DNA of 64,000 bases from Entoloma clypeatum (lineage: Eukaryota; Basidiomycota; Agaricomycetes; Agaricales; Entolomataceae). Positions 24,458 through 64,000 of this stretch are shown piece after piece. The stretch lies in contig OY751487.1 in NCBI GenBank assembly GCA_963565915.1, positions 62,001 through 126,000 of the forward strand, given 5' to 3'. The notes beneath the pieces were generated by a model that worked only from the letters and a program-made list of their open reading frames with translations, was not told the DNA's origin and did not search any database. The position numbers were made by a program, and so were the translations under genes. How positions within the stretch are numbered: the first letter of the stretch is position 1; every line of letters starts with the position of its first letter.

Positions 24458-27400
24458 TCACTTAGAATCCCAGGTAGGTTTCGTAAGTGGAGTATAAGGC
24501 TCTTTAAACTCCATTTGGAGTAGAGCGTGGAATTTTTCAAATTCCTGGCGACCAAGTGGCTTGGTAAACATATCAGCCGGATTCTCTGTTCCCGGAACGA
24601 ACCGTGGTTCGATCAATCCATCTTGAACTCTATCGCGTATAGCAAAATGATGGATTGCCATATGTTTGGTTCTGCCTTCAGTGACTGGGTTTTGCGCATT
24701 GAAAATCGCGCCTTGGTTATCTACATGGAACGGCATTTTGGTAATGTCCTGTAGTCCAAGCTCTTTGAACAGATGAGTAACCCATTCGCACTCTCGCGAA
24801 CATTCACTGGCAGCAACCATTTCCGCCTCAGTGGACGAATGTGCCACTGTCTTTTGCTTGCGACTTTTCCAAAGAACAAGTCCTCCTGCAAGCTTAAGGA
24901 AATATCCCGATTGGGATTTTCTATCAGATGGGTCTGATGCCCAGTCTGAATCTGTCCATGCTTCAAAAGAAGCCTTGGATCGACCATCATAGACTATAGA
25001 GTAGTCTTGAGTACCGACAAGATATCTGATAATCCGTAGAGCGTATTTCTCATGCTCTTTGGAAGGGTTTGCAGACATTTGTGACATTTTTGCAACTGCA
25101 AAGGCAATGTCCGGTCTCGTTCCAATGGACAAGTACAACAACGATCCAATGATCATTTGGTACCTTGTTTTGAGTGTGGGATCCACCTCCCCCTCATTTG
25201 GTGCAGGGTAATAACCCTTTGGGAGTGGAGTGTCAGCAGCCTTTGCATTTTCTAAGCCAAAGCGCTTAATGATCTTCTTCAGGTATTCTGACTGATCGAT
25301 TGTTACGATCTGCTTTTCCGAATCTTGTCGTATTCTCATACGCAAGAATTCTTTAGCAATACCAAGATCACGACTTTCCCATTTATTTTTAAAGTCAGAT
25401 TTTATCTTGCGAACAAGATCTGGGTTTGATCCCATGAACAGGCCGTCATCAACATAGATCAAAGCGATTATCAAATCACCTGATTGTTTGTTGTGGTAAA
25501 CAAAGACGCCTGAGTCGGTTCTACATCGAGTAAAACCTAGCTTCTCCATTGATGCATTGAGCGCGATCCACCACGCTCTCGCAGCCTGTTTTAGGCCATA
25601 GAGTGCTTTTAGTAAACGGATGACCTTCCGTTCTTGGCCTTTGACAACAAAGCCTTCGGGTCGACCCATACAGACCCCCTCATCGAGCTCTCCATAGAGA
25701 AAAGCTGATTTGACATCTACTCCTTCAATCACCCATCCTTCAAGCGCAGCTACGGCGAAGAGGATTCGGATAGTCTCGAAACGTATCACAGGTGAGAAGA
25801 TCTCATCAAAATCGATACCCTCGATCTGTGAGAAACCCTTGGCAACGAGTCGTGCCTTCTTTTGTCCGTCAGTTTTGACGTCGAATACCCATCGATTTCT
25901 GATGGTTTTACGACCTTTAGGTAGGTCAACCAACTTAAAGACATTGCGCTTCCGGAGGGCTTCTAGTTCCTCACAGCATGCTGCTTTCCATTCAAGCTTT
26001 TCCTTTTCAGGTAGCTTATTTATGTCCTTCATTTGCCAAGACTTTGGGTCTTGTGGAATTTCGTCATATGCAGGGATTGCCTTAGATAGCAAGTGCGCAA
26101 GCATTTGTGACTGTCCTCCCCCTTCCCTAATATAGAGTAATTCCTCCATATCTATATCCGGATTCGGATTGGAATTGTTCTGATACATCTGAGGATCAGC
26201 GGAGCTAGTTGATGGAACAGCGCCAGATTGCTGGGGTCTGGTCTCCGATCGGGGATTATAGGCGTATCGCCGTGAATCCTCCTGAACGGTTCTGCTCCAA
26301 TCACGCTGATTTTGACGCAAGGCCTCAGCTGGGTTGTTCCCGTAAACATTTCCAGGACGCTGGGGTATAACCCGAGTACGACGAGGGCGATCAGTCTGTG
26401 GGCGATAATCTCCTGGTAAGGCATGATCATCGTCTGGCGCATCTGTGCGCACACGTTTCCCTGGATTGCGAGTCCGGGGAACCCACTGCTGATTCTCAGC
26501 GGTGTCCTGTCTGTGTGTTCCATCAGAAGTCTGACTGGAACCTTCGGGAAGCTGACCAGTTTGGTCGCTATTTGTATCAGGGAGGTTATGATTGTCATCA
26601 TGGTTTCCTGGTTTAGACGGGTAACGTGAACCGCCAGGACCATGTGCATCATTGTTTTCCGAATGGAAATCGTCGGTTGGTAAATCAGACGGGCCATCAT
26701 GTCCATTTACATCATCGTTTCCCATATCGTCTGATGTTGGATCATGGTATTGTGTTATCGAAGGTATTTTGTTCATTGTAGAACATTTAGGGAACAGCTG
26801 TTCATCAAACATTGCTGTGACACCTATGAAGACTACGTTGTTTGGTATCCGCATAAACCGGTAACCTTTAGTTCCAGTTTTAAATCCGATGAAGATCATT
26901 AGCTCGGATTTAGCGGTGGTAGTACGAATTTCTTTTGGAAGAAAGACGTAAGCACCACATCCAAAAACGTGTAGGTTTGACACATCAGGCTTTTCCTTTT
27001 TAAGGGACTCATACGGAGTAAGCCATCCATGTCTTTTCAATGGAGTTCGGTTATACAAGTGAAGTGCATGTTCTACCGCAAATTGAATCCATGTTTCGGG
27101 TAGGCAAGCATCATGCAATATAGCAAGTGCTTTATCCATTAAAGTTCTGTTAAAGCGTTCCGCACGACCGTTTTGTTGTGGTTGGTGTGGCACAGTAACT
27201 TCACCCTGGATTCCCATCTCACGCATATCTGCTTGGAAAGGGACAAACTCACCGCCGCCATCAAAACGCCAAGTTTTAATTGTCGTATTGAATTGGTTTT
27301 TAACCATGGCATTAAAATCACGAAGTGCAGAGTGTGCATCGGATTTTAGTCTCAATAAAGAGATCCAGGCGTGTGACGTGTAGTCATCAACAAAGCTGAT

Positions 27401-29641
27401 ATAATAATTATATTTGCTATAAGTCGCCTTCTTGAATTGCTTTAAATCCGAATGGATTAGCTCAAGAGGTGCTTTAGCGCGTGTCTGAGATGGTGAGAAA
27501 GATTTTGAAGGCATCTTTCCAAGAGCGCATCCTTTGCAGGGTCGCTCAGTGGACGGTTTGTCCACTCCATTGAAACCTTTGACATGTTTAGAAGCATGTC
27601 GTAGTACTTCATGTGAAGGGTGTCCGAATCGCTTGTGCCAGGTGTCATAATCAACAGATTGTGAGACACTAAGACTAACCAAGTGTATTCGTTCCTCTTT
27701 AATGATCGTGGCATTTAGCCAATAAATCGATTCATTTGCCTTATGAGGATAACACATAAACAAAGGAAGACCTGAATTGGTCTTTAGCGTGATCGAACCA
27801 AATCGTCCGCTAATTTCATTTCCTTGTTTAAGGATCTCGCCTACAGATAAAAGATGAACGTCTAAATCTGGTATATAATAAACGGGTGATAGACGAGTTA
27901 TTTTATTTTGTTCTCGCCCGTTTTTCTTGATGGTGTGATTAATCAACACCGTTCCTTGTCCAAGGATTTGAATAGTGTGACCTTTCTGTGCAATTTGCAC
28001 AGATTGACGATCTTTGAGTGGGGTATACTCAATGAAATCATTGATATCATAAGTAAAGTGCAAAGATGCACCTGAATCAAGAATCCAATTGGATTGATTC
28101 TGTTTCTTACATTCAGCACAATTCGCATAATGAGAATTTATTTGTGCTATAAGCGCGTGTACAGCAGGTGATATAAATACATTGGACCGCCGTCCATTCA
28201 CTCGTCTCCAAAGAGGCTTCTGTGAAGTATTTGTTAACTGCATTGTACGTGCTGTCGAATGTGAAACGTACCCCATGTCGTCGTTGTTTCCATCACCACG
28301 GGAAACTTCATACTCCATATAGTCGTTGACATATCCTTCATCGTAATAGCCCCTTATGGTGGGGGCTATGTCTTCTGTATCCATCTCATTGGCCCAGCTG
28401 ATCCTACTCGGTGTCTCTTCGAAAACCGGAATGCGGTGATTCCGGGGGTCCATTGTCGGAGGCGCTGAAAGCGGCCTTGACGTCGCAGCTTCATTACGCT
28501 GAAGTGCGGGGACATCGACGAGGCGAGTCAGATTCTGCGCTGTTGGAGGGACACCAATGCTGTTAGCCAGTGTGCGCGCTCCATCCAGGTCCGTGAAAGG
28601 GCCTGGGCCAGGAATATTACCGATCGCAAGCGATTGGTTGTTCCTAATCCTCCAGTCGGTGGATGATGAGGGGTGCGGAGTGAAGATAGACCCATTTCCG
28701 TAAATGACCGTATTGGGTAAGGTCTGGATTGGAAGCTGCCCATCAGGGGTGCTATCCATGGCAGAGGAGGCAAAATGCGCCTTCTCTTTTCCTTTCCAGG
28801 GTCCTTTGCCCTTGGTCTTCCCAGCGGAAGTCCCACGTCCTTTGCCTTTCCAGGGCTTGGAGTGCTGATGCGAATGCTGTTGGTTAGCAGCCGGTCCTTC
28901 CGAAGATCCCTGAGAGGGTCCAGTGCGAGGCTGGTACTTCGGGGGGTTGGGCCGAGCGCGTTTTACCGCAGAAATCTTATTCGCGTGAGCACCTCCTTGG
29001 GACTGTGGAGCGTGCGGGTTTTTACGGAAGTATTCCGAGCGTACTTGCTCGATTACTTTCCCGATCTCGAGTACCGTGGACTGATTGCCGCCAGGCGCCA
29101 CATAGTGTACTGCATCAAAGAGGATGCTGTGCACAAGACCATCGTAGCCCTGAGGCAGTCCATTCAGGATCATCATGATCCGGATGAACTTGGGGATGTC
29201 TATATGGTTGTGCTCGAGTCGTTGGAAAAGGGTCTGCATCTTATCGATGCCAGATAAAGGATCGGCGGGAGAAAGAGAGGTGCGGAGGAGTTGCTGGAAA
29301 TCAGCAAAGACGGTGGACGGACCGACCGTGGACAGTTTCGTGGTGATCAGGTCCCACATCTCCTTGGAGGTTTTAGCTCCCTTGATGTGATGGACGAGAG
29401 AGTCCGAAATAGACATCTGAATAAGGCCTTGGGCCTGATCGTCCTGCTCATGCCAAGTGTTTAACTTGTCTTGGAAATCTGTCTCTTTGGGGTCAGCCGG
29501 GAACTTTTTGTCGCCGGTGACGATCCTCCACACTTTAGCTGCCTTTAGGTAGGCGCTCATCTTTTCCTGATAGACGGAGAAGTTGGTGGTGGTGAGCTTG
29601 GGAACGGAAGAAGCGAGGTCGAGTTTGGAGTTTGAGGACAT
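24458..29641 (-). CDS. Copia-1 Gag-Pol polyprotein
   Basis: One open frame of 1727 residues starts at MSSNSKLDLASS (an ATG 11 codons earlier, 29674, is also in frame). Gag has a UBN2-like capsid segment (TSKEMWDLITTKLSTVG, about 85-180) and a Lys/Gly-rich basic tail but no CCHC knuckle. Then protease WILDSGASLHFT (about 520), pre-integrase HKRFGHPSHEVLRHA with CKGCALGKM, and integrase with D (LIHSDLK, about 730), D (WRFDGGGEF, about 795) and E (GRAERFNRTL, about 830). A Ser/Pro/Asp-rich linker follows, then RT (RWVFDVKTDGQKKARLVAKG; YVDDGLFMG about 1396) and RNase H (DSDWASD, SSTEAEMVA, NPADMFTKPLG). All catalytic motifs are present, so the element is probably competent. Confidence 0.95.
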   Translation of the reverse strand: MSSNSKLDLASSVPKLTTTNFSVYQEKMSAYLKAAKVWRIVTGDKKFPADPKETDFQDKLNTWHEQDDQAQGLIQMSISDSLVHHIKGAKTSKEMWDLITTKLSTVGPSTVFADFQQLLRTSLSPADPLSGIDKMQTLFQRLEHNHIDIPKFIRIMMILNGLPQGYDGLVHSILFDAVHYVAPGGNQSTVLEIGKVIEQVRSEYFRKNPHAPQSQGGAHANKISAVKRARPNPPKYQPRTGPSQGSSEGPAANQQHSHQHSKPWKGKGRGTSAGKTKGKGPWKGKEKAHFASSAMDSTPDGQLPIQTLPNTVIYGNGSIFTPHPSSSTDWRIRNNQSLAIGNIPGPGPFTDLDGARTLANSIGVPPTAQNLTRLVDVPALQRNEAATSRPLSAPPTMDPRNHRIPVFEETPSRISWANEMDTEDIAPTIRGYYDEGYVNDYMEYEVSRGDGNNDDMGYVSHSTARTMQLTNTSQKPLWRRVNGRRSNVFISPAVHALIAQINSHYANCAECKKQNQSNWILDSGASLHFTYDINDFIEYTPLKDRQSVQIAQKGHTIQILGQGTVLINHTIKKNGREQNKITRLSPVYYIPDLDVHLLSVGEILKQGNEISGRFGSITLKTNSGLPLFMCYPHKANESIYWLNATIIKEERIHLVSLSVSQSVDYDTWHKRFGHPSHEVLRHASKHVKGFNGVDKPSTERPCKGCALGKMPSKSFSPSQTRAKAPLELIHSDLKQFKKATYSKYNYYISFVDDYTSHAWISLLRLKSDAHSALRDFNAMVKNQFNTTIKTWRFDGGGEFVPFQADMREMGIQGEVTVPHQPQQNGRAERFNRTLMDKALAILHDACLPETWIQFAVEHALHLYNRTPLKRHGWLTPYESLKKEKPDVSNLHVFGCGAYVFLPKEIRTTTAKSELMIFIGFKTGTKGYRFMRIPNNVVFIGVTAMFDEQLFPKCSTMNKIPSITQYHDPTSDDMGNDDVNGHDGPSDLPTDDFHSENNDAHGPGGSRYPSKPGNHDDNHNLPDTNSDQTGQLPEGSSQTSDGTHRQDTAENQQWVPRTRNPGKRVRTDAPDDDHALPGDYRPQTDRPRRTRVIPQRPGNVYGNNPAEALRQNQRDWSRTVQEDSRRYAYNPRSETRPQQSGAVPSTSSADPQMYQNNSNPNPDIDMEELLYIREGGGQSQMLAHLLSKAIPAYDEIPQDPKSWQMKDINKLPEKEKLEWKAACCEELEALRKRNVFKLVDLPKGRKTIRNRWVFDVKTDGQKKARLVAKGFSQIEGIDFDEIFSPVIRFETIRILFAVAALEGWVIEGVDVKSAFLYGELDEGVCMGRPEGFVVKGQERKVIRLLKALYGLKQAARAWWIALNASMEKLGFTRCRTDSGVFVYHNKQSGDLIIALIYVDDGLFMGSNPDLVRKIKSDFKNKWESRDLGIAKEFLRMRIRQDSEKQIVTIDQSEYLKKIIKRFGLENAKAADTPLPKGYYPAPNEGEVDPTLKTRYQMIIGSLLYLSIGTRPDIAFAVAKMSQMSANPSKEHEKYALRIIRYLVGTQDYSIVYDGRSKASFEAWTDSDWASDPSDRKSQSGYFLKLAGGLVLWKSRKQKTVAHSSTEAEMVAASECSRECEWVTHLFKELGLQDITKMPFHVDNQGAIFNAQNPVTEGRTKHMAIHHFAIRDRVQDGLIEPRFVPGTENPADMFTKPLGRQEFEKFHALLQMEFKEPYTPLTKPTWDSK

Positions 29642-29731
29642 GATGATGCTGCGAAACATAAATAGAATCAGCATGTGTTTTTCCGAAAAAGCGCATCAGA
29701 AAAATAAATAGACGAGCTGCCTTGTCGGTCA

Positions 29732-46680: not shown

Positions 46681-47017
46681 TGGTAGAATTCGCCCACAAA
46701 TGAAATCAATTTTTGATATTCACTTTCGTGTGTTACAAGTGAATGCAATGAATGAGCCAATATTATGGCAATTGATAGCATTGAAGCAACACAGTCTGTA
46801 GTGATACATAGTCATGAGAGGTTGCTCTGTAGCACTACAGAGGAATGGCAGGTTGCTACATATTGCTACATAGTGATGGCAGATTGCTACAGGTTGCTAC
46901 AGAGCGATGGCAGGTTGCTACAGAGCGCTCTCAAATCATAACCCTTCGCTACAGCGCTATGGCGCTCCAGAGTGCTCTGGACACTCCCCAGCGTCTCCAG
47001 GTTTTGCTGATGTATGA

Positions 47018-47269
47018 GCAGTAGCGAATGAGTCAGTAACTGCGGAAGACAGTGCGCATGAGTAAGATGACTGCAGACTGAGTAATACTACTGCAGAGCT
47101 GAGTAAGGTTACTGCTGCGGAGCTGAGTAAGGCTACTGCAGACTGAATCATACTGGAAATCTAAGGGAGCGAAAGTAGGTATTAGACATAGTGTATTTGT
47201 AAGAGGGCACCAAGTCGGGATGATAAGTAAAAGAGATGATGTAGTCTGCATACTGTAGAGTCCGTAACA
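47018..47269 (-). repeat. Gypsy-2 3' LTR, inner part
   Basis: The minus strand begins TGTTACGGACTC right after a polypurine tract GAGGGGAACA (47270-47279), then has several ACTCAG...CTGCAGT units like the 31-bp units of the gypsy-1 LTR, here more numerous. Confidence 0.75.
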
Positions 47270-47282
47270 TGTTCCCCTCTTC

Positions 47283-47660
47283 AAGCTCTGTGTCCTCACA
47301 GAGTCATTGTCCCCATCCCTCATTGTTGTTGGGATTGGACCAGTTTGGACTCTCCTTGAGGCTCCAATCATATATTAGCTCTTTGTTGATGGCAACGGCG
47401 AGTTTGAGGCCGTTGATAGCCAGCCGAATATGTCAATTTTCGATGACGAGGGTGCTGGTGTAATTCCCGAGAATTTGTTTCTCCTCAGGGCTCAGGGTGA
47501 CAGGGAGGTTGGACAATGAGTGAAGCCAGATATGCATCTGTCAATGAAAAAGGTTGGCAAGGGAAGTTTTGAGGGCGTGGATTTGGTCTCTCATGGAGAG
47601 TGCTTCGTTCATAAGGGCAGCGATGGCGGGGTTGATGTCGGTGGTGGAGGTGGAGGTAGC
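47283..47660 (-). pseudogene. Gypsy-2 ORF3, C-terminal part
   Basis: The minus strand is similar to gypsy-1 ORF3: EALSMRDQIHALKTSLANL, then a stop where gypsy-1 has Arg, QMHIWLHSLSNLPV, EEKQILGNYTSTLVIEN, another stop, and a diverged tail. The N-terminal codons are absent here; the frame is interrupted at 47666 by a 182-bp repeat. The missing start (ATGTCTAACACCACC) lies at 62609-62623 on the other strand. Confidence 0.75.
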
Positions 47661-47665
47661 GGTGG

Positions 47666-47847
47666 TGTAACGAGTGCGATTGGCATGGTCATCAGTTGGT
47701 CATTGGAGTTACCGTATTAGGCTGAGCACAGCCGCTTATGTAATGGAAGCCTTTTACCTCACACGACATTGTACAGCCAATACCAGATTTTGGTCAAGCT
47801 TACCTTGTTCTGTGAGATTGAGGGCTTTTCCTGTAACTCTTGTTACA
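47666..47847 (-). repeat. 182-bp TG...CA repeat, copy A
   Basis: Ends TGTAACGAGTG...CTTGTTACA. About 97% identical (5 differences seen) to the inverted copy at 62624-62805. TG/CA ends suggest a small solo LTR; matching ends also allow a MITE. Left neighbour GGTGG (47661-47665) is the complement of CCACC beside copy B. Confidence 0.8.
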
Positions 47848-50231
47848 TTTTTTAAGCTATCCTTAACTGCTATTACCTGCTACAGGGGAACACCCCCATT
47901 GCTATCAGCTCTCTAGCTGCACCTACCCCATCTGGCCCAGAGGCTTCACTTTGAAGCCTCCTCTTTTGTCTGCTGCCTAGCTGTGTCACATACACACAGC
48001 TTATGGCCTCTTTTGAGTTGTCTGGCCCCCAGAAGTTCACTCAGAGCTCCCTTTTTCGGGATGAGCTGGCACCTTTGCTGCCAGCTGGCATTTTCTTATA
48101 TGGAAATGGCTCATTTCCAAGCCATTCCGTCGTGTCGAACACGTTGAGAAGCCTCTCGAAAGACTTGAGGTCCAGTTGTCACAAGCTGGAGACCTCATCT
48201 ACATATTCTGCAAGTACTACATTACATGTAGCAAAGTCTACTAGGGTGGACTTGACTGCCTCACCACAGTCAACTTATGTTGAACCGAGAATTCGGTATC
48301 GAGATACTATTCACAGAGTTGTGAAAGAGATGCTGTGGCTGGACCACAGGCTAATCATGGATTTCGAGATGGAACTATGGTCCATCGTTCCGACGGTTAT
48401 TGATAATGACTGTCTCAAGTGTATGAGCTATGAAGCTCATAGATTCACTCTCGCAAGTGTGAATGAGGTGTATGGTCGCGATATACTATGCAATGAAAGA
48501 GAGTATATTGACCACTTCAAGTGGTCATTTGTCCGTGAACTCAATATGGAGTTGGACAGGTGCACAAAGCCATATGCACCTATAGAGGCTCATAAACCTC
48601 TAGCATATTACAAGGACCTCTATGGAGAAGTGGTCCGACATGTTGAGCATGTCTTTAAGATGAAGAGGAAGGCTGCGAAGTCTTCCAAAATGAACGCAAA
48701 CATCCAGAAGGCTCATGAAGAACCTTCTAACATCCATGTGGAAAGTTTGCAACATGTTTATCATGTTGCGCGTGGAGAAATGGCTCATCACAAGCCATCT
48801 GAACCTCTCAACAGTTGGAGAGGTGACTCAGAATATCACTCCGTTCAACAGAATGGAGATATGAAGACAGTTATGTCTTCAAACAGAGAAGCCGCGCAAC
48901 ATCAAGATATTGTCATGGAAAGAAACCATGAGGCTTATGAGCCTCATCAACTTCTGAACCACGGAGATGGTGTTGACCACCACTCCAAAGTGGATCGTGA
49001 AGAAGTGAAGACTATTAAGTCTTCAGTCGACAGACTAGAACAGAAGACTTCTAAGTCTTCCAACTCTCTCAAAGAGTCTAAAGAAGAGAATGGAAACATT
49101 TCTGTTAATATGAATCAAGAAATGGAGGTTAAAATAACCTCCTCCAGAGTCAATGAAGAGACTCCGGAAATTATTGCCGAATTGAAAATGGCAAAGGAAG
49201 ACAACAACAGTTGTCTTGAAATATGGAGTAAAGACTCCATAGATCTCGTTTGCAAAAGAGACATAGACAGTCTCAACAGAACACAAGTTCTGTCAACTTC
49301 AAAAAAAGGTCTTGAAATTCAAAGACCTTTATCAAAGGCAGATCAACTGCCTTTGTGGTGGTCAGAATGGGTTGTGAAATCCCAACCAACCCATAGAACA
49401 TGACCACCAACAATGGAAACAAGATTCCAAGGGCACCACATTTGTGGTCCGAAAGATGCCATCAACTGCAAATGCACAGCAAGAGCCCAAAATGGGCTGG
49501 AAGTTCACAAAAACCGTGGCAACAGAATTGTTGCCCACATGAAAATCATAGCCGAGAGGGTTCTAATAACCCTCAAGATGAAAAGATCTCATTGCCCAGC
49601 AATGATGGGTCAAATAGACCACATCAGACTGCAAGTAACGAACAACAGGTTTGTTATCAATGACAACAAGATTGTCAAAATAAACGCAAACATCTGGGTC
49701 AACATAACCCAGGCGAGAATGATATTTGATGGCGAAATATTCACCGTCAAAGAGACAATGAGAAAGAGAGACAGAGTACAGAAGACTCTGTCACAGTAGA
49801 GAAGAAGAGATGGCAATGAAAACATCGCCATCAACGTTGCAAGAGTAGTGAAAGTCGACAACATGTGTCAACTGACGATGAGAGCACAAAATTGTGCTCT
49901 AAGTGTAATGACAAGATTGTTTGCTCCATAATGAAGCAGAGTGGTCAAGCCATGACCACTGTCCACAAGTCGGAACATCAAAAGCACAAGAAATGGGATG
50001 ACAGAATAGACGGACACCAAGTCTGTCATTCCCACATTCCGTGGAGAAATTGTTCTCTGAGACAATTGTAGTGTCTCAAAGACCTCAAGCCCCCCCCAAT
50101 AATATGTTTTGTTGTGAACAGGGCAAGGAGGGGGGAAAGCAGGGATTCCAAGAAACCTGCAGAACATTTTGGAAGGGGGCAGAGGAGGGGACACCTCCCC
50201 CGATGAATAGGTGACAACAGCACCTATATTA
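47848..50231. repeat. Dense short-hairpin array, segment X1
   Basis: Almost the whole stretch consists of short inverted repeats with unrelated sequences. Stems (bp) and spans seen: 47941-47959 (8), 47979-48001 (8), 48101-48119 (7), 48333-48349 (6), 48509-48527 (8), 48749-48769 (8), 48803-48824 (7), 48863-48880 (6), 49276-49293 (7), 49305-49330 (9), 49334-49354 (8), 49518-49535 (7), 49881-49900 (8), 50207-50227 (7), with many shorter ones between. There is no tandem period. Contains the 466-codon frame. Confidence 0.8.
48003..49403 (+). CDS. Hypothetical 466-residue ORF inside the hairpin array
   Basis: An ATG-initiated frame (MASFELSGPQKFTQ) is open for 466 codons. The first half has globular-like composition (IRYRDTIHRVVKEMLWLDHR, YIDHFKWSFVRELNMELDR, YYKDLYGEVVRHVEHVFKMK), while the second half is rich in Lys, Glu, Ser, His and Asn and looks disordered. 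No domain recognised, and no introns, signal peptide or promoter evidence. A second frame at 49413-49799 follows (it starts METRFQGHHICGPKDAINCK) and could be its continuation after a frameshift. It may be a real gene invaded by hairpins, or an accidental frame in DNA of unusual structure. Confidence 0.3.
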   Translation: MASFELSGPQKFTQSSLFRDELAPLLPAGIFLYGNGSFPSHSVVSNTLRSLSKDLRSSCHKLETSSTYSASTTLHVAKSTRVDLTASPQSTYVEPRIRYRDTIHRVVKEMLWLDHRLIMDFEMELWSIVPTVIDNDCLKCMSYEAHRFTLASVNEVYGRDILCNEREYIDHFKWSFVRELNMELDRCTKPYAPIEAHKPLAYYKDLYGEVVRHVEHVFKMKRKAAKSSKMNANIQKAHEEPSNIHVESLQHVYHVARGEMAHHKPSEPLNSWRGDSEYHSVQQNGDMKTVMSSNREAAQHQDIVMERNHEAYEPHQLLNHGDGVDHHSKVDREEVKTIKSSVDRLEQKTSKSSNSLKESKEENGNISVNMNQEMEVKITSSRVNEETPEIIAELKMAKEDNNSCLEIWSKDSIDLVCKRDIDSLNRTQVLSTSKKGLEIQRPLSKADQLPLWWSEWVVKSQPTHRT

Positions 50232-51850
50232 CAGTGCCTCACAAAACTGATTCAATGTTTGCTACTTTGTGAATACCTTCAAAATAACTTTGCAAATAAT
50301 GCCAATCAAAAGAAGGTATTGGTATCTGGTTAAAGGCCCTGCTTCAGGACTCTCGGAATCTGCAACAATTATGTAATTTCCATAAAAAATGATCAATATA
50401 TGATCAAATTACTCCAGGGACTCATTGAATCAGTTTTGTGAGTATGTACAATAAATACAGTATTTTATACTTTAGTACTTGGTATTACCCCCCTTAGCTT
50501 TGATTACTGCCTCTACCCTTCTTGGCATACTTTCTATCAGGTTTTGACACACTTCTGGCTCTATATTATTCCACACCTCTGCTGCTCTGTCCCAAATCTC
50601 CCAGACTCCCTTGGGTGGTGTTGGATATTCATTCAACTTCCTTTTAATATGAACCCAGAGGTGTTCAATAGGATTGAGGTCTGGGGACTGTGCAGGCCAA
50701 TCCAGCAGAGCAATATTCTTGCTGTCCATCCATTTTTTGGCCTTCTTGGAGGTGTGCTTGGGGTCATTGTCCTGCTGAAAAACGATCTCCTCTTCAGAGA
50801 TTCCACTCTCCTCCATGCTGGGCAGCAAATTGTCCTCCAAAATGGACACATACTGATCAGCATCCATCCTCCCCTCAACCTCTGCAAGTCTCCCCACACC
50901 TTCCCAACCCATACAACCCCAAACCATAATATTTCCTCCCCCAAACTTGACTGTGCCCTGAACCTCTCTTTCAATAAGCCCCTCACCCTTCTTTTTCCAG
51001 ACCCATTCCTTGCCATCTGACCCAAACCTGTTGATTTTGGTCTCATCTGACCAAATGACCCTCTTCCAGTCCTTCACTGTCCATTTCCTGTGCTTCATAG
51101 CAAATGCCCAACCGCCTTTTCTGATGTATGGCCTTTAAGAAAGGTCTTTTCTTCTTTGTCACAGCCTTGAATTCATGTTTTCTGAGAACCCTTCTCACAG
51201 TTTCTGGGGAGACAGGATTGGAGATGACAGTGTTGATGTGTTTGGTAGCCTGCACAGCATTGGAGGCTCTTCCTGAGGTGATTTGTAAAAGTATGTTTCA
51301 TGTGTTGGTGGGAGAAAGCTTGGATGGACGACCACCAGAAGAGAGATTGTGATGAGGAAGAAGATTCTGAAGTGCTCTGGAGACAGTTGGTTGGCTGGCA
51401 CCCAGGTTAGAGGCAATATGACGAGTGGAGTGACCATTGGAGGCCAGAGAAAGAATGTTTTCCTTGTGGGAAGAGGAGATAGGGCGCATGATTAATTATG
51501 GAGGCTGTTGAGGTTGGATTCTTCTAATACAACTTTCCTTGACAACCCATCAGGGTTCTATTCAAGTTCCATCAGTAAGTCATGACAACTGGTTACCATA
51601 CAACCAGTGAAGCATTGATTCTGATAATTGCCATAGGTACTCACAAAACTGATTCAATGAGTTGCTGATTTAATTTAATCATATCTCCATGGATTCTGAT
51701 CTAAATCATGTGATTCCTTTATATTCTGAAAGCCCTGAAGTAGGGCTTTCAATTATATACCAAAGGTTTAATTCAATTGGTATTCTTTGCAGAGTTATCT
51801 TGAAGGTATTCAAAAAGCAGCAAACATTGAATCAGTTTTGTGAGGCACTG
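50232..51850 (-). mobile_element. Tc1/mariner-family DNA transposon, TSD TA
   Basis: Terminal inverted repeats CAGTGCCTCACAAAACTGAT at both ends, TA on each side (50230-50231 and 51851-51852). Each end also holds an internal inverted copy of the same motif (about 50412-50438 and 51640-51662), so each end is itself a foldback. It is inserted in the hairpin array right next to hairpin 50207-50227. Confidence 0.92.
50472..51489 (-). pseudogene. Tc1-like DD34E transposase with one stop and one frameshift
   Basis: The minus strand starts MRPISSSHKENILSLASNG, with a helix-turn-helix region (STRHIASNLGASQPTVSRAL). An in-frame TGA at about 51298 follows SKLSPTNT; the frame continues with ILLQITSGRASNAVQATKHI and RRVLRKHEFKAVTKKKRPF. 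A one-base insertion near 51118 shifts to the C-terminal frame: MKHRKWTVKDWKRVIWSDET (first Asp), GGGNIMVWGCMGWEG, VFQQDNDPKHTS (second Asp), SPDLNPIEHLWVHIKRKL (Glu, 34 residues on), stop at 50472. The catalytic triad is intact, so it died recently or is complemented by other copies. Confidence 0.88.
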
Positions 51851-51852
51851 TA

Positions 51853-52167
51853 TACCACATAATTCCGCAACATGAGATTTTTTCCTTCCCAATTTATGGT
51901 CATAAAGGCCGTACTATGAAATAGTTGCGGAGAGACTATAGATGGCAATAGCACCACCTACAATACATGAGGAAGGTACCATGTACCTTCTGGCAACAAA
52001 ATAGAAAGGACAGTGTGAAATTGAAGAATCAACACTGTCGAAAGTAAAGTAGAAATGACAATGTGTCATTTATGATATAAAAATGACAATATGTCATTTA
52101 AGAAAATAAAGTTGATGATATCAATAGGTTGTCATCTCATATAGTACCAGTAACAAAGACTGGTATA
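51853..52167. repeat. Dense short-hairpin array, segment X2
   Basis: Continuation of X1 beyond the Tc1-like insertion. Clear hairpins: 51972-51990 (GAAGGTAC-CAT-GTACCTTC), 52053-52071 and 52081-52099 (two related 8-bp stems AAATGACA, loops ATG and ATA). It ends exactly at the gag ATG of gypsy-2 (52168). Confidence 0.75.
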
Positions 52168-55100
52168 GTTGTCATTCACATGGCAGAAGGTTTGGCAGTA
52201 CAAACAATGGATACATCCAAGATCATCAAAGATCCTGGTATATTCAAGGACAGACACACCTTTGACAAGTGGTGGAAAGCCACCAAACTATACATCAGGT
52301 TCCAAAAGAGCCTAACAGATGATCAGATGATTCTTGCGGTGCTATCCCGCATGATGGAAGGGTCCAGCAGGCACTGGGCCAGTAACAAGTTAGACACTCT
52401 TGCTGTTGACAACGAGAACATCACCTGGCTAGGTTTTTCCGATGATATCACCACACAATTCTCCATCGCCAACAAGTTGGTCGCTGCCAAAGCAAGACTC
52501 AAAGTCCTGAAACAAGAGAAATGCACCATTGATGAATTATTGGATGAATTCGAAGAACTCTTGAAGCTGTCAAACCTTGGCAAAGAAACTGGGAAATACA
52601 TCCTAGAGAAGAACGTCAACTGCAGAATCTCTGAACAAGTGGCTAGTGATGGCAAGACATACTCTGATTATGCAAAGGAGATCCAAAACAAGGGACGACA
52701 GATGGAAGGACACACACTGGTCATCTGAGGTGGCGGTGACATGCGTACCAGATCAGATACCACTTATGGTGGTCAGGGCAAGGCCATGGAGATCAACAAA
52801 GCAGGGGTAGCCCATTGCTACAACTGTCAATGCTTCGGTCATCTGGCTAAAGACTGTAGCACTCCAAAGAAGAAAGATGGTTGCAAGTGTTTCAACTGTG
52901 ACCAAGAAGGCCATATCGCACACAACTGCCGCAAGCTGAAGAAGAACTCTGGAAGGGTTAGGAAGGTGTCTGAGGAAGATGCCAAGAATGATGAAACCAC
53001 AATCTTAGAAGCCGATGAGAAGGATTTTCCTGAAGGGTCCAATTAAACAACGCTAAGTTGCGACCCTTATCTATTAAATGGACTTGCTTGCCTTGTATGA
53101 CTGCAGACAATAGAACCTATGTCATCCCTGCCAAGCGAGCCGCTGCGTCAACTAAGATTGTGAAGGGAGACAAACCTCTGAAAAGACAAGAGATCAGGCT
53201 GTTAGCTCAGCTCAAAACACAACGAGGACCAAAGGTCATCCAACCTGAGGTTGATAGTGGATGTGAACGCACATGCATCCATCCCAGAATAGTACATAAA
53301 CAGAACCTCCCCATGTGAGGGATACCGCCCATAGCAATTCTAAATGTGGATGGATCACCAAATCAACAACAGAAAGCGAACCAACTTGCCGAAGTCAAGC
53401 TGGATTTGAGAACACATCAGGAAACCATGGAAGCAATGGTACTGGACATTGGGAGAACAGACATGCTCTTGGGACATGACTGGTTGGTACACCACAACCC
53501 TATGATCAATTGAACAACCGGCGCTGTAATGTTCAACTGGTGCCCAACAACATGCCGAACCAAACATTCAGATTTCAGGGTTAACCTTGATGGTTGCAAA
53601 CACTGGGTTCACATGGTTGAGGTGCATGACAAAGACACACCCAAGAAGTCAGATCAGAAATGGAAGCCTGGAGACCCTATCTTGGAAGCCGTCACTCCCA
53701 CACCACCTCCCACAACCAAATGACTCTCATATGTTGATCAGTCTGCTCACCTCTTTGAGAAGGAGAACTTTGATAAGATTCCAAAGGAAAGGGAATGGGA
53801 CCATGGTATCGAACTTATACCAGACACACCAAAGGAACTAGAGGGAAATACATATCTCATGACACAAAATGAACAAGAGGAATTGGACACATTCATTGAC
53901 AAGGGTCTAGCAACTGGAAAGATCCACCTGTCCAAATCCCCTTATGCCTCCCCTTGTTTCTTCATCAACAAAAAGGATGGTTCCAAATGATTAGTACAAG
54001 ATTACCACATGGTCAATAAATTCATGGTCAAAGACAAGTTCCCACTCCCACAAATATCCAATCTCTTGGACGTACTAAAAGATGCAGTCTACTTCACTAA
54101 GATGGACATCATGTGGGGCTATAACAATGTCTGGATTAAGGAGGACAATGAATGGAAAGCTGCCTTCCTCACCAGTTGAGGATTGTTCGAACCATTGGTC
54201 AGGTTTTTTGGCCTTTGCAACTCCTGGGAACGTTCTCTCAAATGATGGCTAGTCTATTTCGGGACCAGATCCGCCGACACATCTGCATGATCTACATGGA
54301 TGACATTGTGGTTATTGGTAAAACCAAGGAAGAACTTGTGTGAAACACTGAAGAAATTCTGCAGATCCTATCAGACAATGACTTGTTCCTGAAGGAAAAG
54401 AAGTGTTTCTGGGAAGTAACAAAATGCCCCATATTGGGATATGTCGTTGGTGAAGGATGTGTAGAGATGGAAACTGAGAAGGTGGATACAATTTGAAACT
54501 GGCGAGCACCCACATCAAAAAAGGAAGTTCAGAGGTTCCTTGGATTTGCTAACTTCTATCAACACTTCATTGAAGGGTACTCAAACATTGCGAAACCACT
54601 CACCGTGCTCACAGGCAGCACTACGTTTACTTGGGGACCAACAGAACAAAAGGCATTTGAAGGTCTTGTACAGGCGATCACATCAGCACCAGTTTTGGCA
54701 TTGCCAAAACCAGATGGACAGTTCTGGGTCAAAACCAATGCATTGGGCTATGCAATTGGGGCTGTACTCTCTCAAAAACAGGACAACAAATGGCATCCTA
54801 TCATGTTCTTGTCGCGGACCATGTCCGCAGCTGAACAAAATTACAAGATATATGACAAAGAGCTCTTGGCAGTTATGGAAGCACTGCAAGATTGGAGACA
54901 CTATCTGCTTGAAGCCAGGGAACACTTTGAGATCTTAACTGATCACAAGAACCTGGAGTATTTCCACTGTCCTCAGGACCTGAATCAATGAAAAAGGTGC
55001 TGGAAGATGACATTACAAGACTATGACTTCGAATTACGGCATGTGCCTAGCAAGACAAATGCAAAAGTGGACATCCTGTCACACTTACTCTGGTATGAAA

Positions 55101-56361
55101 CAGAACTCAAACCACAAGACAGTGACCAAATGCTCAAGGAGGGACTATTTTTGAAACGGTTGGAATCAGAAGATGTAGTACAAATGGAGATGTTCACAGA
55201 GGAACAATTCTTTGAAGGGGGTGAAACATCTGATTCCATCAAGATTGGAAATGTTACAACCATTGAAAATCTGTGGATCACATGCATCAAGGGTTCAAAC
55301 CACATGGAGACAGAAGTAGCCCAGGGTCTAAAGAAGAATTCTCATTGGTACCAACAGGAAAATGGCATCACATATGCAGGCAAATGAGTCTATGTTCCAC
55401 CAGACCCACAACTGCGTCAAGAATTGATGTTTGAGTCACACAATGCACCAGTGGCTGGACATCCAGGACAGTATCAGATGCACAAACTCCTCACTTGTAC
55501 CTACTGGTGGCCTACCATCCTGCATGATGTGAAGAAGTACATGAAGGGTTGTGACACCTGTCAATGCAACAAGATCAACAGACAGAAACAACATGCTCCG
55601 CTACACCCCCGTGCAGCACCAAGTCATCCATGGGAAGACATAGGGATTGATGTTGTGGGACCGATACCAGAGTCAGATGGAAAGAATGTGATTCTCATCA
55701 TCATGGATAGACATTTGAAGATGCTCCATCTCATTCCAACAACTGTGGAATTATTGGCTGAAGGATTAGCCAAGATCTATTGGGATCAGATATGGAAGCT
55801 TCATGGGATCCCCAAGAAGATCATCAGTGACAGTGGACCACAGTTCGCTGCAAAGTTCATGGAGATACTTTGCCACATGTTAGGGATCAAAAGGAATCTG
55901 TCCACCGCATACCATCCACAGACTGATGGACAGGCCGAACGATTGCATCAGGAAACAGAAGCATTCTTATGAAACTTTGTCAACCATCTACAAGATGACT
56001 GGGCTGAATGGATCGTGATTGCTGAATTCCAGTACAATAACAAAGAACATCAGGTGATGAAGCACACACCATTCTACCTTAACTATGGTTTACATCCTTG
56101 GAAGGGAGAACTTGTATTGGAAGACACCAACCTGGCTGCCAACAACTTCTTGAAAAAACTCAAACAAGCACGAGAAGAAGCCAATGCAGTGCTGAAACAG
56201 GCACAGGATCAGATGAAGAAGACAGTTGATACACAACGGAGTCCGTCTCAGAACTACCACATCAGAGACAAGGTGTGGCTGGAAGGGACTAACATCAGGA
56301 CTAACCGTCCCTCAAAGAAACTTGACACCCTCCGACATGGACCTTTTAAGGTCCTAGAGAA
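52168..56361 (+). pseudogene. Gypsy-2 gag-pol, CpG-decayed relative of gypsy-1
   Basis: Same order as gypsy-1: gag from MAEG..VQTMDTSK with both knuckles (CYNCQCFGHLAKDC, CFNCDQEGHIAHNC), protease EVDSGCERTC, RT (IYMDDIVVIG at about 54288), RNase H, integrase (GIDVVGPIPESDGK, ISDSGPQFAA, TDGQAERLHQE). More than ten in-frame stops (for example near 52726, 53317, 53511, 53721, 53988, 54178, 54342, 54989, 55385, 55970), mostly CGA to TGA or TGG to TGA. The gag N-terminal region and 5' LTR are absent; the sequence changes to hairpin array directly at the ATG. It is split at GAGAA (56357-56361) by Copia-2. Confidence 0.92.
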
Positions 56362-61830: not shown

Positions 61831-62141
61831 TGTTGAAGTTCCACCTGGGCACTAGCCGCAAGTGTACTGAAGCAACCGGCTACAGTGGAAGTACTCTACG
61901 ATACCGTTCTGACCACTTACATAGATTGGAGAGGGTGAGGCTGGTGAGAGCGGTTGAGGCTGGTAAGAGCGATGGAGGCGGTTAAGAGTCAAGAGACAAC
62001 TTGTTCGTATTGACAGTTTCCTGGTCTTATATACCGTACTACTGTTTGTACCAACCAAACAAGTATGTAAGAAAGATATGTAATGGTCACGTGATGTGAT
62101 CTAATCTAAATCTAATCTACGTGATGGGAAAAGTTTCAACA
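61831..62141 (-). repeat. Copia-2 5' LTR
   Basis: 311 bp. The 5' leader between it and gag (61465-61830) holds no ORF comparable to the Copia-1 leader ORF. Confidence 0.92.
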
Positions 62142-62623
62142 GAGAAGAAAGGGGCTAGCACGTACCTTCTTGATCTTCCAAAGATTTGGAAAATGATTCA
62201 CCCTGTGTTCAATGAGACCCTGTTGTCACCATACGAAACCCCGAAGTATGCCATCCAGAAAAAGAAACCAGCCCCTGATCCGATCATCATCGAGGGATAA
62301 GAAGAGTACCATGTGTCTACGATCCTAGACTCTTGAAAGTTCTGTGGAAAGATCCAGTACCTCATCTAGTGGGAAGGATATGGCCCAGAAGAGAACACAT
62401 GGGAATCTCGAGCTAATGTTCAGAATGCTCAAGACTTGATCCGTGATTTCCATTGGCAGAACATGTCATGCCCACGATAAAAGACAACTTTCGAAATCCA
62501 TGACAGTATCGACCTCATCAGTCAACCACACACCGAGTTCCCTGCTCTAGTCCCTTTCCTGCCCAATATAGCCTCCCTGTTCTTCTTCTCTCGACCATCC
62601 TTGCTGCTATGTCTAACACCACC
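62142..62623 (+). pseudogene. Gypsy-2 pol C-terminus (chromodomain) and start of ORF3
   Basis: It resumes gypsy-2 pol after Copia-2 (GASTYLLDLPKIWKMIHPVF), with stops in the chromodomain region (EG-EEYHVSTILDS, QYLI-WEGYGPEENTWE). Pol stops near 62477. ORF3 begins with ATGTCTAACACCACC (62609-62623) and is cut there by the 182-bp repeat. The rest of ORF3 is at 47.3-47.66 kb, inverted. Confidence 0.9.
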
Positions 62624-62805
62624 TGTAACAAGAGTTACAGGAAAAGCCCTCAATCTCACAGAACAAGGTAAGCTTGACCAAAATCTGGTATTGGCTGTAC
62701 AATGTCGTGCGAGGTAAAAGGCTTCCGTTACATAAGCGGCTGTGCTCAGCCTAATACAGTAACTCCAATGACCAACTGATGACCATGCCAATCCCACTCA
62801 TTACA
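62624..62805 (+). repeat. 182-bp TG...CA repeat, copy B
   Basis: TGTAACAAGAGTTAC...CACTCATTACA, preceded by CCACC (62619-62623). It is inverted relative to copy A. In element sense, copy A is followed by CCACC of ORF3, so CCACC is the probable 5-bp target duplication of one ancestral insertion. Confidence 0.8.
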
Positions 62806-64000
62806 TATCCCCCTTCAAGATTGCTGCTGCAATCTTCACTTGACTTTGCGTGAGGAGATTGAAGTGGGAGGTCATGGTAGCCTCCAACAAATTCAGATTT
62901 TGAAGGATTGACTGCGAAGATTCATGGTCATGGGTATAATCTGGAGTCTTTGGACTCCAATAGAATAAAAGGATAAATAATAATAATTTAGAATGAGTGG
63001 CACCACCTTTGTTGAGCCCTCGAGTCAATCAGGGGTTGTTAGACCCCTCCCGATTATCGCCGAGGTTCCAACGGAGGTAGGGTGGCTCATATCAAGTCGA
63101 ATTTTGACTTGTTGTTGAACACGCACCAGATCATTGAACCTGCATGGTCACATGGTCATGTGAGGTCACAGGACCTTGTTGATTTGTTTGACCATTTATC
63201 GCTCATTGATAAATGAGCTTCTTGGTAATCACCACCTTTTGAGGCTCTTCCATGAGCCTCGTCTCTCATAGCTCGATGCCTACCTGCTTGACAACTGGGG
63301 CACATTCAGTGCCGAGCAATGTTAGTCGCCCACCATTGTCAAGACTCACGGGGAGTGCAAATCGGAGAGGGACGAGGGCATTTCTGCCCTCCATTGTCCA
63401 TTGGGGGGGCTGACAGCCAAGGTGAAGGCTTGGACACCTGCACATGGGCGTATGAAGGTGCATGGCACCTTCACTAGTACCAGAGAACGACACAATGTGT
63501 GTCGTTCATTGTTTACTGACACCTTGTTTTGTTTGAGGGACATTCTTGTCCCTCTAGGTATTATTTTCTGTTGTTGGTCGACTGCTACAAGTCGACCCCA
63601 TCTCATTACGCATCGATGAGGAGAGCCCCGGCCCACCCTCATCAACTGCTTCTTTGTTCGCCAACGCTGTCCCATTGCCGGCGTTCATCGTCGACGGACA
63701 ACTCCTGGTCGAGGGGCGATCGTTGTCCCTCCATTCTCGTTATCAACCACCTTTGTGTCGACCCTGTTCTGTCCCACCTCAATGAGGGAGAGCTTTGGCT
63801 CACCCTTGTATCAAGGTGTTGATGCCGTCCAATTGCCGGTGTCCATCATCACTGACGACTCTCCATGGAGGGGCATACATCGTCCCTCCATTCATTATCG
63901 GTTGATTCTTCTGAACCGACCTTGTCCAGGCGCATCTGAAGGTATGTAATACCTTCATCTTGTCGGGAGGATGATGCCATGGGCATTGTTCATTATTATT
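62806..64000. repeat. Dense short-hairpin array, segment Y
   Basis: Same texture as X1/X2. Hairpins seen: 62817-62838 region (GAAGATTG...CAATCTTC), 63193-63215 (8 bp, CATTTATC), 63453-63473 (9 bp, TGAAGGTGC-ATG), 63485-63507 (9 bp, GAACGACAC), 63535-63554 (8 bp, GAGGGACA), 63576-63597 (8 bp, GGTCGACT), plus CAAGTCGAATTTTGACTTG near 63094. It runs to the window edge. No gene supported; short frames here are on both strands. Confidence 0.75.

Follow-up and report, generated by a model that had tools for sequence, protein, structure and literature searches.

Short perfect hairpins, each of different sequence, follow one another along a retrotransposon family of the fungus Entoloma clypeatum. We analyzed a 64,000-nucleotide stretch of its genome (the window: assembly GCA_963565915.1, contig OY751487.1, forward-strand positions 62,001 to 126,000), in which a preliminary description had reported a hairpin domain, and searched the genome at large (60 Mb in 20 contigs, the window being part of contig C5). 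The hairpin stretch makes up the 5′ internal part of a repeated, dispersed element flanked by long terminal repeats (LTRs), which we call HE. Both HE and AE, a coding element of the same genome, are built of discrete hairpins of ~19-22 nt, with a 7-9 bp stem, a short loop, and sequences that differ from one hairpin to the next. Neither composition nor codon choice accounts for the density of these hairpins, and their stems change less than their surroundings. On balance, and with modest confidence, we favor the view that local hairpins are selected while the elements replicate, HE sharing its architecture with the Ty3-order AE.

Hairpins were counted as non-overlapping perfect stems of ≥6 bp with a loop of 3-10 nt per 1-kb window, against 30 dinucleotide shuffles of each window. 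Positions 48001-49000 and 49001-50000 each contained 18 stems, vs 1.9 and 1.7 in shuffles, and stems of ≥7 bp numbered 10 and 14 (0.53 and 0.23 shuffled). The succession of hairpins claimed at 47.85-50.23 kb is thus real (18 stems/kb vs ~1.8), as are the three consecutive hairpins offered as examples (49276-49293, 49305-49330, and 49333-49355). Shuffled sequence and the region at 36-41 kb had both been named beforehand as comparisons able to refute the claim, and the excess stands against either: the five 1-kb windows of that region gave 3, 3, 1, 0, and 1 stems (shuffles 1.3-2.0), i.e., 0-3 per kb. The “hundreds” of hairpins initially proposed were an overcount for this stretch, 50 stems of ≥6 bp being found in 47848-50229 and 51853-52182 together (loop 2-14). 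A second hairpin-dense stretch, absent from the preliminary description, extends from 62.8 kb past the window end, with 12 stems in 63001-64000.

Mapping window parts on fetched loci and reading their flanks yielded the plan of HE, i.e., LTR, segment D1, a middle segment, segment D2, a polypurine tract, and LTR, with a length of ~6.9 kb summed from the window and L018, the least interrupted copy. D1 has 41 genome matches at ~20 places, mostly at 73-95% identity, and the 182-bp LTR, which ends in TG..CA, has 33. The LTR-D1 and D2-LTR junctions recur in many copies, and the LTRs of complete copies are direct (e.g., C15, C5:480286-500062). Of two LTR pairs compared, the one in the window shows 5 differences and the other 4 in 182 positions. 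Target duplications of 5 bp were identified as CCACC/CCACC in the window and AGAGG/AGAGG for L034/L017, and a third candidate (L035/L016) matches at 4 of 5 positions. The polypurine tract CTTGAAGGGGGATA lies at HE ends upstream of the 3′ LTR. Downstream of the 5′ LTR, reading by eye, with no systematic test made, recognized no tRNA-like primer binding site.

In the window, the 5′ LTR in sense orientation (47666..47847, plus strand) stands beside the target-site duplication GGTGG (47661..47665, plus), whose partner CCACC is at 62619-62623, and leads into the ~20-nt hairpin array of D1 (47848..50229, plus). D1 is broken by the Tc1-like insertion that had already been noted, here placed by its 215-nt inverted ends at 50230..51852 (minus); it does not belong to HE, D1 being continuous in uninterrupted copies. 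The hairpins resume in the D1 continuation (51853..52178, plus), which matches D1d 1-326 of other copies. The 3′ LTR in sense orientation (62624..62805, minus) was recognized by its flanks and its 97% complementarity to 47666..47847. Beside it are the polypurine tract (CTTGAAGGGGGATA on the minus strand, 62806..62819), a hairpin with an 8-bp stem and a 4-nt loop (62817..62836, minus) whose stem recurs with other loops in AE, and the hairpin array of D2 (62806..64000, minus), which runs past the window. The LTRs at 47.7 and 62.7 kb face each other with the same target duplication on both, and this inverted pair is one rearranged HE insertion. A two-LTR element with inverted LTRs was therefore dropped, and no single element was seen with long terminal inverted repeats, the mark of a foldback or miniature inverted-repeat transposable element, complete copies having direct LTRs. 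The 3′ end of a Ty3 element is split between 47018-47661 and 62131-62623 with the HE target duplication beside each part, as after an inversion, and C2:1908242-1921420 shows a similar order, LTR(+)-D1 ... LTR(-)-D2.

Elements of Tc1-like, Ty3, and Copia type either sit inside HE or adjoin it. Among them, the gag-pol of a Ty3-type element at 52183..56361 (plus), joined to HE and not hairpin-dense, was ruled out as HE's own because its counterpart in L012 sits within D1 and carries its own ~400-bp LTRs. Part of the domain had been called an open reading frame (ORF), and a 482-aa frame is indeed open in D1 (47955..49403, plus), but the family variants inside it show no synonymous bias: shared non-stem variants were 78 synonymous, 157 non-synonymous, and 5 stop, vs expected fractions of 0.291, 0.677, and 0.032. 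With no Pfam match, no database homologue, and no coding constraint detected, this ORF was dropped as a protein gene, and HE is a non-autonomous LTR retrotransposon without detected coding constraint, the 482-aa ORF being the frame examined. The preliminary description was hence accurate on hairpin density and missed the dispersed LTR element family to which the domain belongs; its exclusion of a minisatellite, CRISPR, and a classical foldback agrees with our own, the domain being a dispersed LTR element whose D1 has no period. A known structured RNA family was likewise dropped, Rfam giving no match at E ≤ 1 for L018 1-6400.

Across 30 fetched loci, the HE-like parts (71,764 bases) carried 13.5 stems of ≥6 bp and 5.7 stems of ≥8 bp per kb, vs 2.7 and 0.4 in the remaining 134,488 bases. 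L018 contains 84 stems in 5,862 nt, vs 14.8 in shuffles, and hairpins are spaced at about one per 50-70 nt in the element. An artefact, whether of base composition, of low complexity, or of an old, decayed satellite, is barely plausible as their source: a diverged tandem repeat does exist within D2 (copies at 63694 and 63851), but dinucleotide and codon shuffles rule out chance and composition, D1 is aperiodic, and inverted 7-mers in L018 occur at 14-79 times expectation for loops ≤7, with the excess gone at loops of 20-29.

The hairpins have a preferred size. Spans of 19-22 nt were found for 48 of the 68 hairpins with stems of ≥7 bp, and the pairing probability was overall 0.5-0.65 within 9-9.5 nt of the centre and 0.23-0.36 farther out, dropping to chance level past ~10 nt. 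Specifically, given four matched pairs, it was 0.65 and 0.52 out to 9.5 nt and 0.28 at 10.5 nt for even centres, and 0.64 at 9 nt and 0.30 at 10 nt for odd centres; the homologous copies L015 and L009 together gave the same profile, which was lacking in control sequence. Purines predominate in the left arms, where AGG occurs in 22/79 and CCT in 1/79 (14/59 and 4/59 in AE). A fixed outer span of ~20 and this tilt would both suit ~20-bp sites in duplex DNA recognized by a dimeric protein, such as an integrase, a host repressor, or a chromatin factor. We consider such sites quite improbable, as stem sequences vary while 7-9 pairs stay complementary, although a half-site reader would keep the sequence, and the inner 4 nt pair at near-chance frequency, as in a loop. 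Local RNA folding was also stronger than in controls, with mean z of -2.5 and -2.7 for the two strands of L018, -2.9 and -3.3 for D1, and -1.9 and -2.4 for D2 (controls 0 to -0.7). The hairpins of HE sit at matching positions in its copies, and along the element each unit has its own stem sequence. Whole hairpins are carried by some indels; hairpins as inserted modules were nonetheless rejected, no clear 20-nt insertion class being found among indels.

AE was found because the polypurine tract beside the HE LTR led to it. A search allowing two mismatches returned 25 matches, some away from all HE LTR matches, and three such loci were fetched; the AE version of the tract differs by one base. 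Judged by its domains, AE is an element of Ty3 order, with reverse transcriptase (RT) and RNase H upstream of integrase: L044 encodes RT, RNase H, integrase H2C2, and a Tf2-1-like SH3 in this order, oriented toward the polypurine tract and LTR (RVT_1 3.1e-24, RT_RNaseH 1.9e-23, then Integrase_H2C2 9.9e-19). The orientation of pol also fixes the sense strand of HE, which in D1 is the window's plus strand. AE-related DNA has 44 genome matches. The 3′ LTR is present in L042-L044, and a 66-bp match (C2:1679533-1679598) is the candidate 5′ LTR. The sequence shared by HE and AE amounts to little beyond ~35 bp at the polypurine tract, plus a 39-bp match between L043 and HE. The link includes a hairpin beside the tract, AAGATTGC-loop-GCAATCTT, in which HE and the three AE loci have one stem and four loops (AGCA, AACG, TATG, and AACA). 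Among the best 120 of 671 pol relatives, named ones came from Leucocoprinus, Lyophyllum, Hypsizygus, Trametes, and Pleurotus; six peptide patterns found no relatives in viral contigs. A 449-aa ORF follows pol (L044:1674-3020, minus) without a Pfam match, and its third codon positions change most (0.27 vs 0.09-0.12), so that it probably encodes a real protein of no known family.

The hairpins continue through AE coding sequence. The eight stop-to-stop ORFs of L044 hold 61 stems of ≥6 bp vs 13.7 after codon shuffling, its three Pfam-positive pol ORFs 16 vs 3.65 (for stems of ≥8 bp, 7 vs 0.33), and two post-pol ORFs 28 vs 6.4. As controls, the long plus-strand ORFs of the first 46 kb of the window gave 11 stems vs 15.1, the Copia element at 56.4-62.1 kb 9 vs 5.9, and the Ty3 part of L042 1 vs 3.5; the long minus-strand ORFs of the first 46 kb, including a 1745-aa Copia ORF, showed a real but weaker excess (37 vs 20.7). 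Along L042, hairpin density climbs where the Ty3 copy ends and AE starts. Pairing in AE ends less abruptly on the outer side than it does in HE, and 33/59 spans measure 19-22 nt. Of 385 pairs compared between L044 and L042, 8 had both members altered, each giving another Watson-Crick pair (2.09 expected, p 4e-4; slid-pair controls 0-5), and third codon positions changed at 22/174 sites in stems and 202/934 outside. That hairpins lie inside the RT and integrase genes suggests that nucleic-acid shape matters for the copying of the element.

The preliminary description had offered two causes, selection for structure and template switching that turns imperfect palindromes into perfect ones. We compared stem and other columns in reference-anchored alignments of HE copies (19 rows for D1, 17 for the middle segment, and 10 for D2), separating private variants, i.e., those in one copy, from those shared by ≥2 copies. 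In D1, private variants affected 134/808 stem columns and 293/1536 others (0.166 vs 0.191), and shared variants 99/808 and 321/1536 (0.123 vs 0.209). The values in D2 were 41/224 and 165/776 for private (0.183 vs 0.213) and 26/224 and 189/776 for shared variants (0.116 vs 0.244). With L018 as the D1 reference, private variants were found in 183/1016 vs 410/2306 columns and shared ones in 122/1016 vs 410/2306. Selection for structure is thus the better fit in D1 and D2, where shared variants are depleted in stems and private ones are not. Chance hairpins in Ty3 and Tc1 copies showed no depletion of shared variants, in small samples (7/64 vs 136/1958 and 7/70 vs 51/1221). Watson-Crick cells exceeded within-pair permutations in all segments (z 2.9, 3.1, 3.3, and 2.4), and a deeper D2 alignment of 14 relatives had 88.8% of cells paired, vs 34-49% in slid structures.

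Several observations weigh against selection. Private variants are depleted in stems of the middle segment too (32/267 vs 223/1092, 0.120 vs 0.204; shared 28/267 vs 167/1092, 0.105 vs 0.153), so that this segment does not separate selection from mutation. The 14-row D2 alignment had a covariation score not above shuffles (0.107 vs 0.103, 130/500 as high) and fewer further pair types (28 vs 32.2). Private variants are everywhere richer in transversions than shared ones, and the private/shared contrast may therefore partly be alignment noise. Hairpin phases in AE ORFs are near even (18, 15, and 13), with no tilt to the phases with most synonymous freedom. Folding is equally good on both strands, and shared D1 variants give, on the HE sense strand, 22 G.U vs 37 A.C pairs, contrary to expectation for sense RNA. 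With L018 as reference the ratio is likewise reversed (29:43), the middle segment and D2 give 7:6 and 3:8 (in terms of the X strand), and the pair of AE copies 22:15 and 15:16. The excess of A.C over G.U does not favor sense RNA, and minus-strand complementary DNA (cDNA) would fit; as a strand indicator, these counts give no firm answer in HE or AE, the orientation fixed by pol opposing the HE tilt.

The main rival holds that the copying of this lineage, by its RT or by template switching on cDNA, perfects short palindromes of limited length, the hairpins being an unselected by-product. It would accommodate the even phases in AE coding DNA, the all-or-none pairing whose sharp outer limit resembles a tract length, and the presence of hairpins in both HE and AE, whose common polypurine tract and neighboring stem may point to one machinery, but not in nested Ty3, Tc1, and Copia elements. 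Template switching in yeast genes is reported to homogenize arms and invert spacers (PMC8604942), and the same argument is made for nematomorph mitochondrial palindromes (PMC6649704). We nevertheless regard this process as rather unlikely to be the cause. Mismatched stems were replicated, 67 of 94 shared minor pair types in D1 not being Watson-Crick; copies that are 83-95% identical have the same stems; and across families the loop next to the polypurine tract varies on a stem that is retained. The suggestion that single hairpins arise by local inversion was not borne out among copies, a strict test giving 0 loci in four alignments and a loose test flagging 18/1172 comparisons, none convincing. 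Palindrome-perfecting template switching as first proposed therefore fits less well, yet during reverse transcription it remains the rival.

If hairpins are selected, copies whose RNA or first-strand cDNA retains small stem-loops would leave more offspring during replication, and stems would be held by purifying selection, occasionally by compensatory change, even within pol. Conserved pairing is established at the DNA level, with RNA or cDNA as candidates for the folded molecule. Two roles are proposed, which are the least certain part of this account: the stem-loop chain might compact genomic RNA for the Gag particle, or it might hide genomic RNA from base-pairing defenses such as RNA silencing, each stem-loop presumably being too short as a dicer substrate. 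More tentatively, a Ty3-type lineage with coding and non-coding members could have its genome quantized into ~20-nt stem-loops over genes and spacers alike, each a protein- or defense-facing unit or a product of the lineage's own reverse transcription with a fixed reach; we see this as possible. Should selection indeed shape almost every 50-70 nt into a hairpin, RT and integrase genes included, the shape of RNA or cDNA would be a main phenotype of the element, and the family a natural system for asking what structure is for, i.e., packaging, escape from RNA silencing, or reverse transcription. A lineage-wide ~20-nt architecture would amount to a genome-wide structural code undescribed for retrotransposons in open-access PubMed Central (PMC) searches. 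If copying is instead responsible, the lineage would possess a palindrome-making activity specific to it and of unusual strength.

Other repeats were noted in and around these loci. Just outside HE, a 31-bp tandem repeat of the GCTACAGAG type occupies 46804-46954, and a Copia-type element at 24458-29695 (minus) has a single 1745-aa open frame, with repeated segments flanking it near 24.3 and 30.7 kb. L037-L040, ~1 kb each, form a separate, moderately hairpin-rich repeat family, ~93% alike and ~72% identical to part of D2. L041 is another relative, of which an ~870-bp piece (L041:2428-3300) occurs, with 89-94% identity, at no fewer than ~40 places, a count obtained by scoring 40 of 2646 candidates.

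AE resembles Agaricomycete Ty3/gypsy elements (Metaviridae) in its RT-RNase H followed by integrase H2C2 and in its Tf2-1-like SH3, while the hairpin excess of the window's other Ty3-type and Copia elements is absent or much weaker. In RNA viruses, ordered RNA structure on a genome scale extends over both coding and non-coding sequence and exceeds codon shuffles; HE and AE differ from them in their uniform mini-hairpins and in a pairing excess at short range only. The nematomorph mitochondrial coding palindromes (PMC6649704) likewise comprise numerous perfect inverted repeats of differing sequence, within genes too, and are either perfect or absent, but they are mitochondrial and reach 284 bp, whereas those of HE and AE belong to nuclear transposons, with a 19-22-nt unit and stems conserved between copies. 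No description of such a hairpin array in a retrotransposon was found in open-access PMC. Large retrotransposon derivatives (LARDs, e.g., barley Sukkula) are, like HE, LTR-flanked and several kb long, with a core without protein product, and presumably moved in trans; HE is unlike them in its LTRs of only 182 bp, its ~20-nt hairpin array, and a coding relative with hairpins inside pol. HE thus works like a LARD with short LTRs and mostly fits that definition. Within these searches, the new part is the ~20-nt hairpin array across HE and AE.

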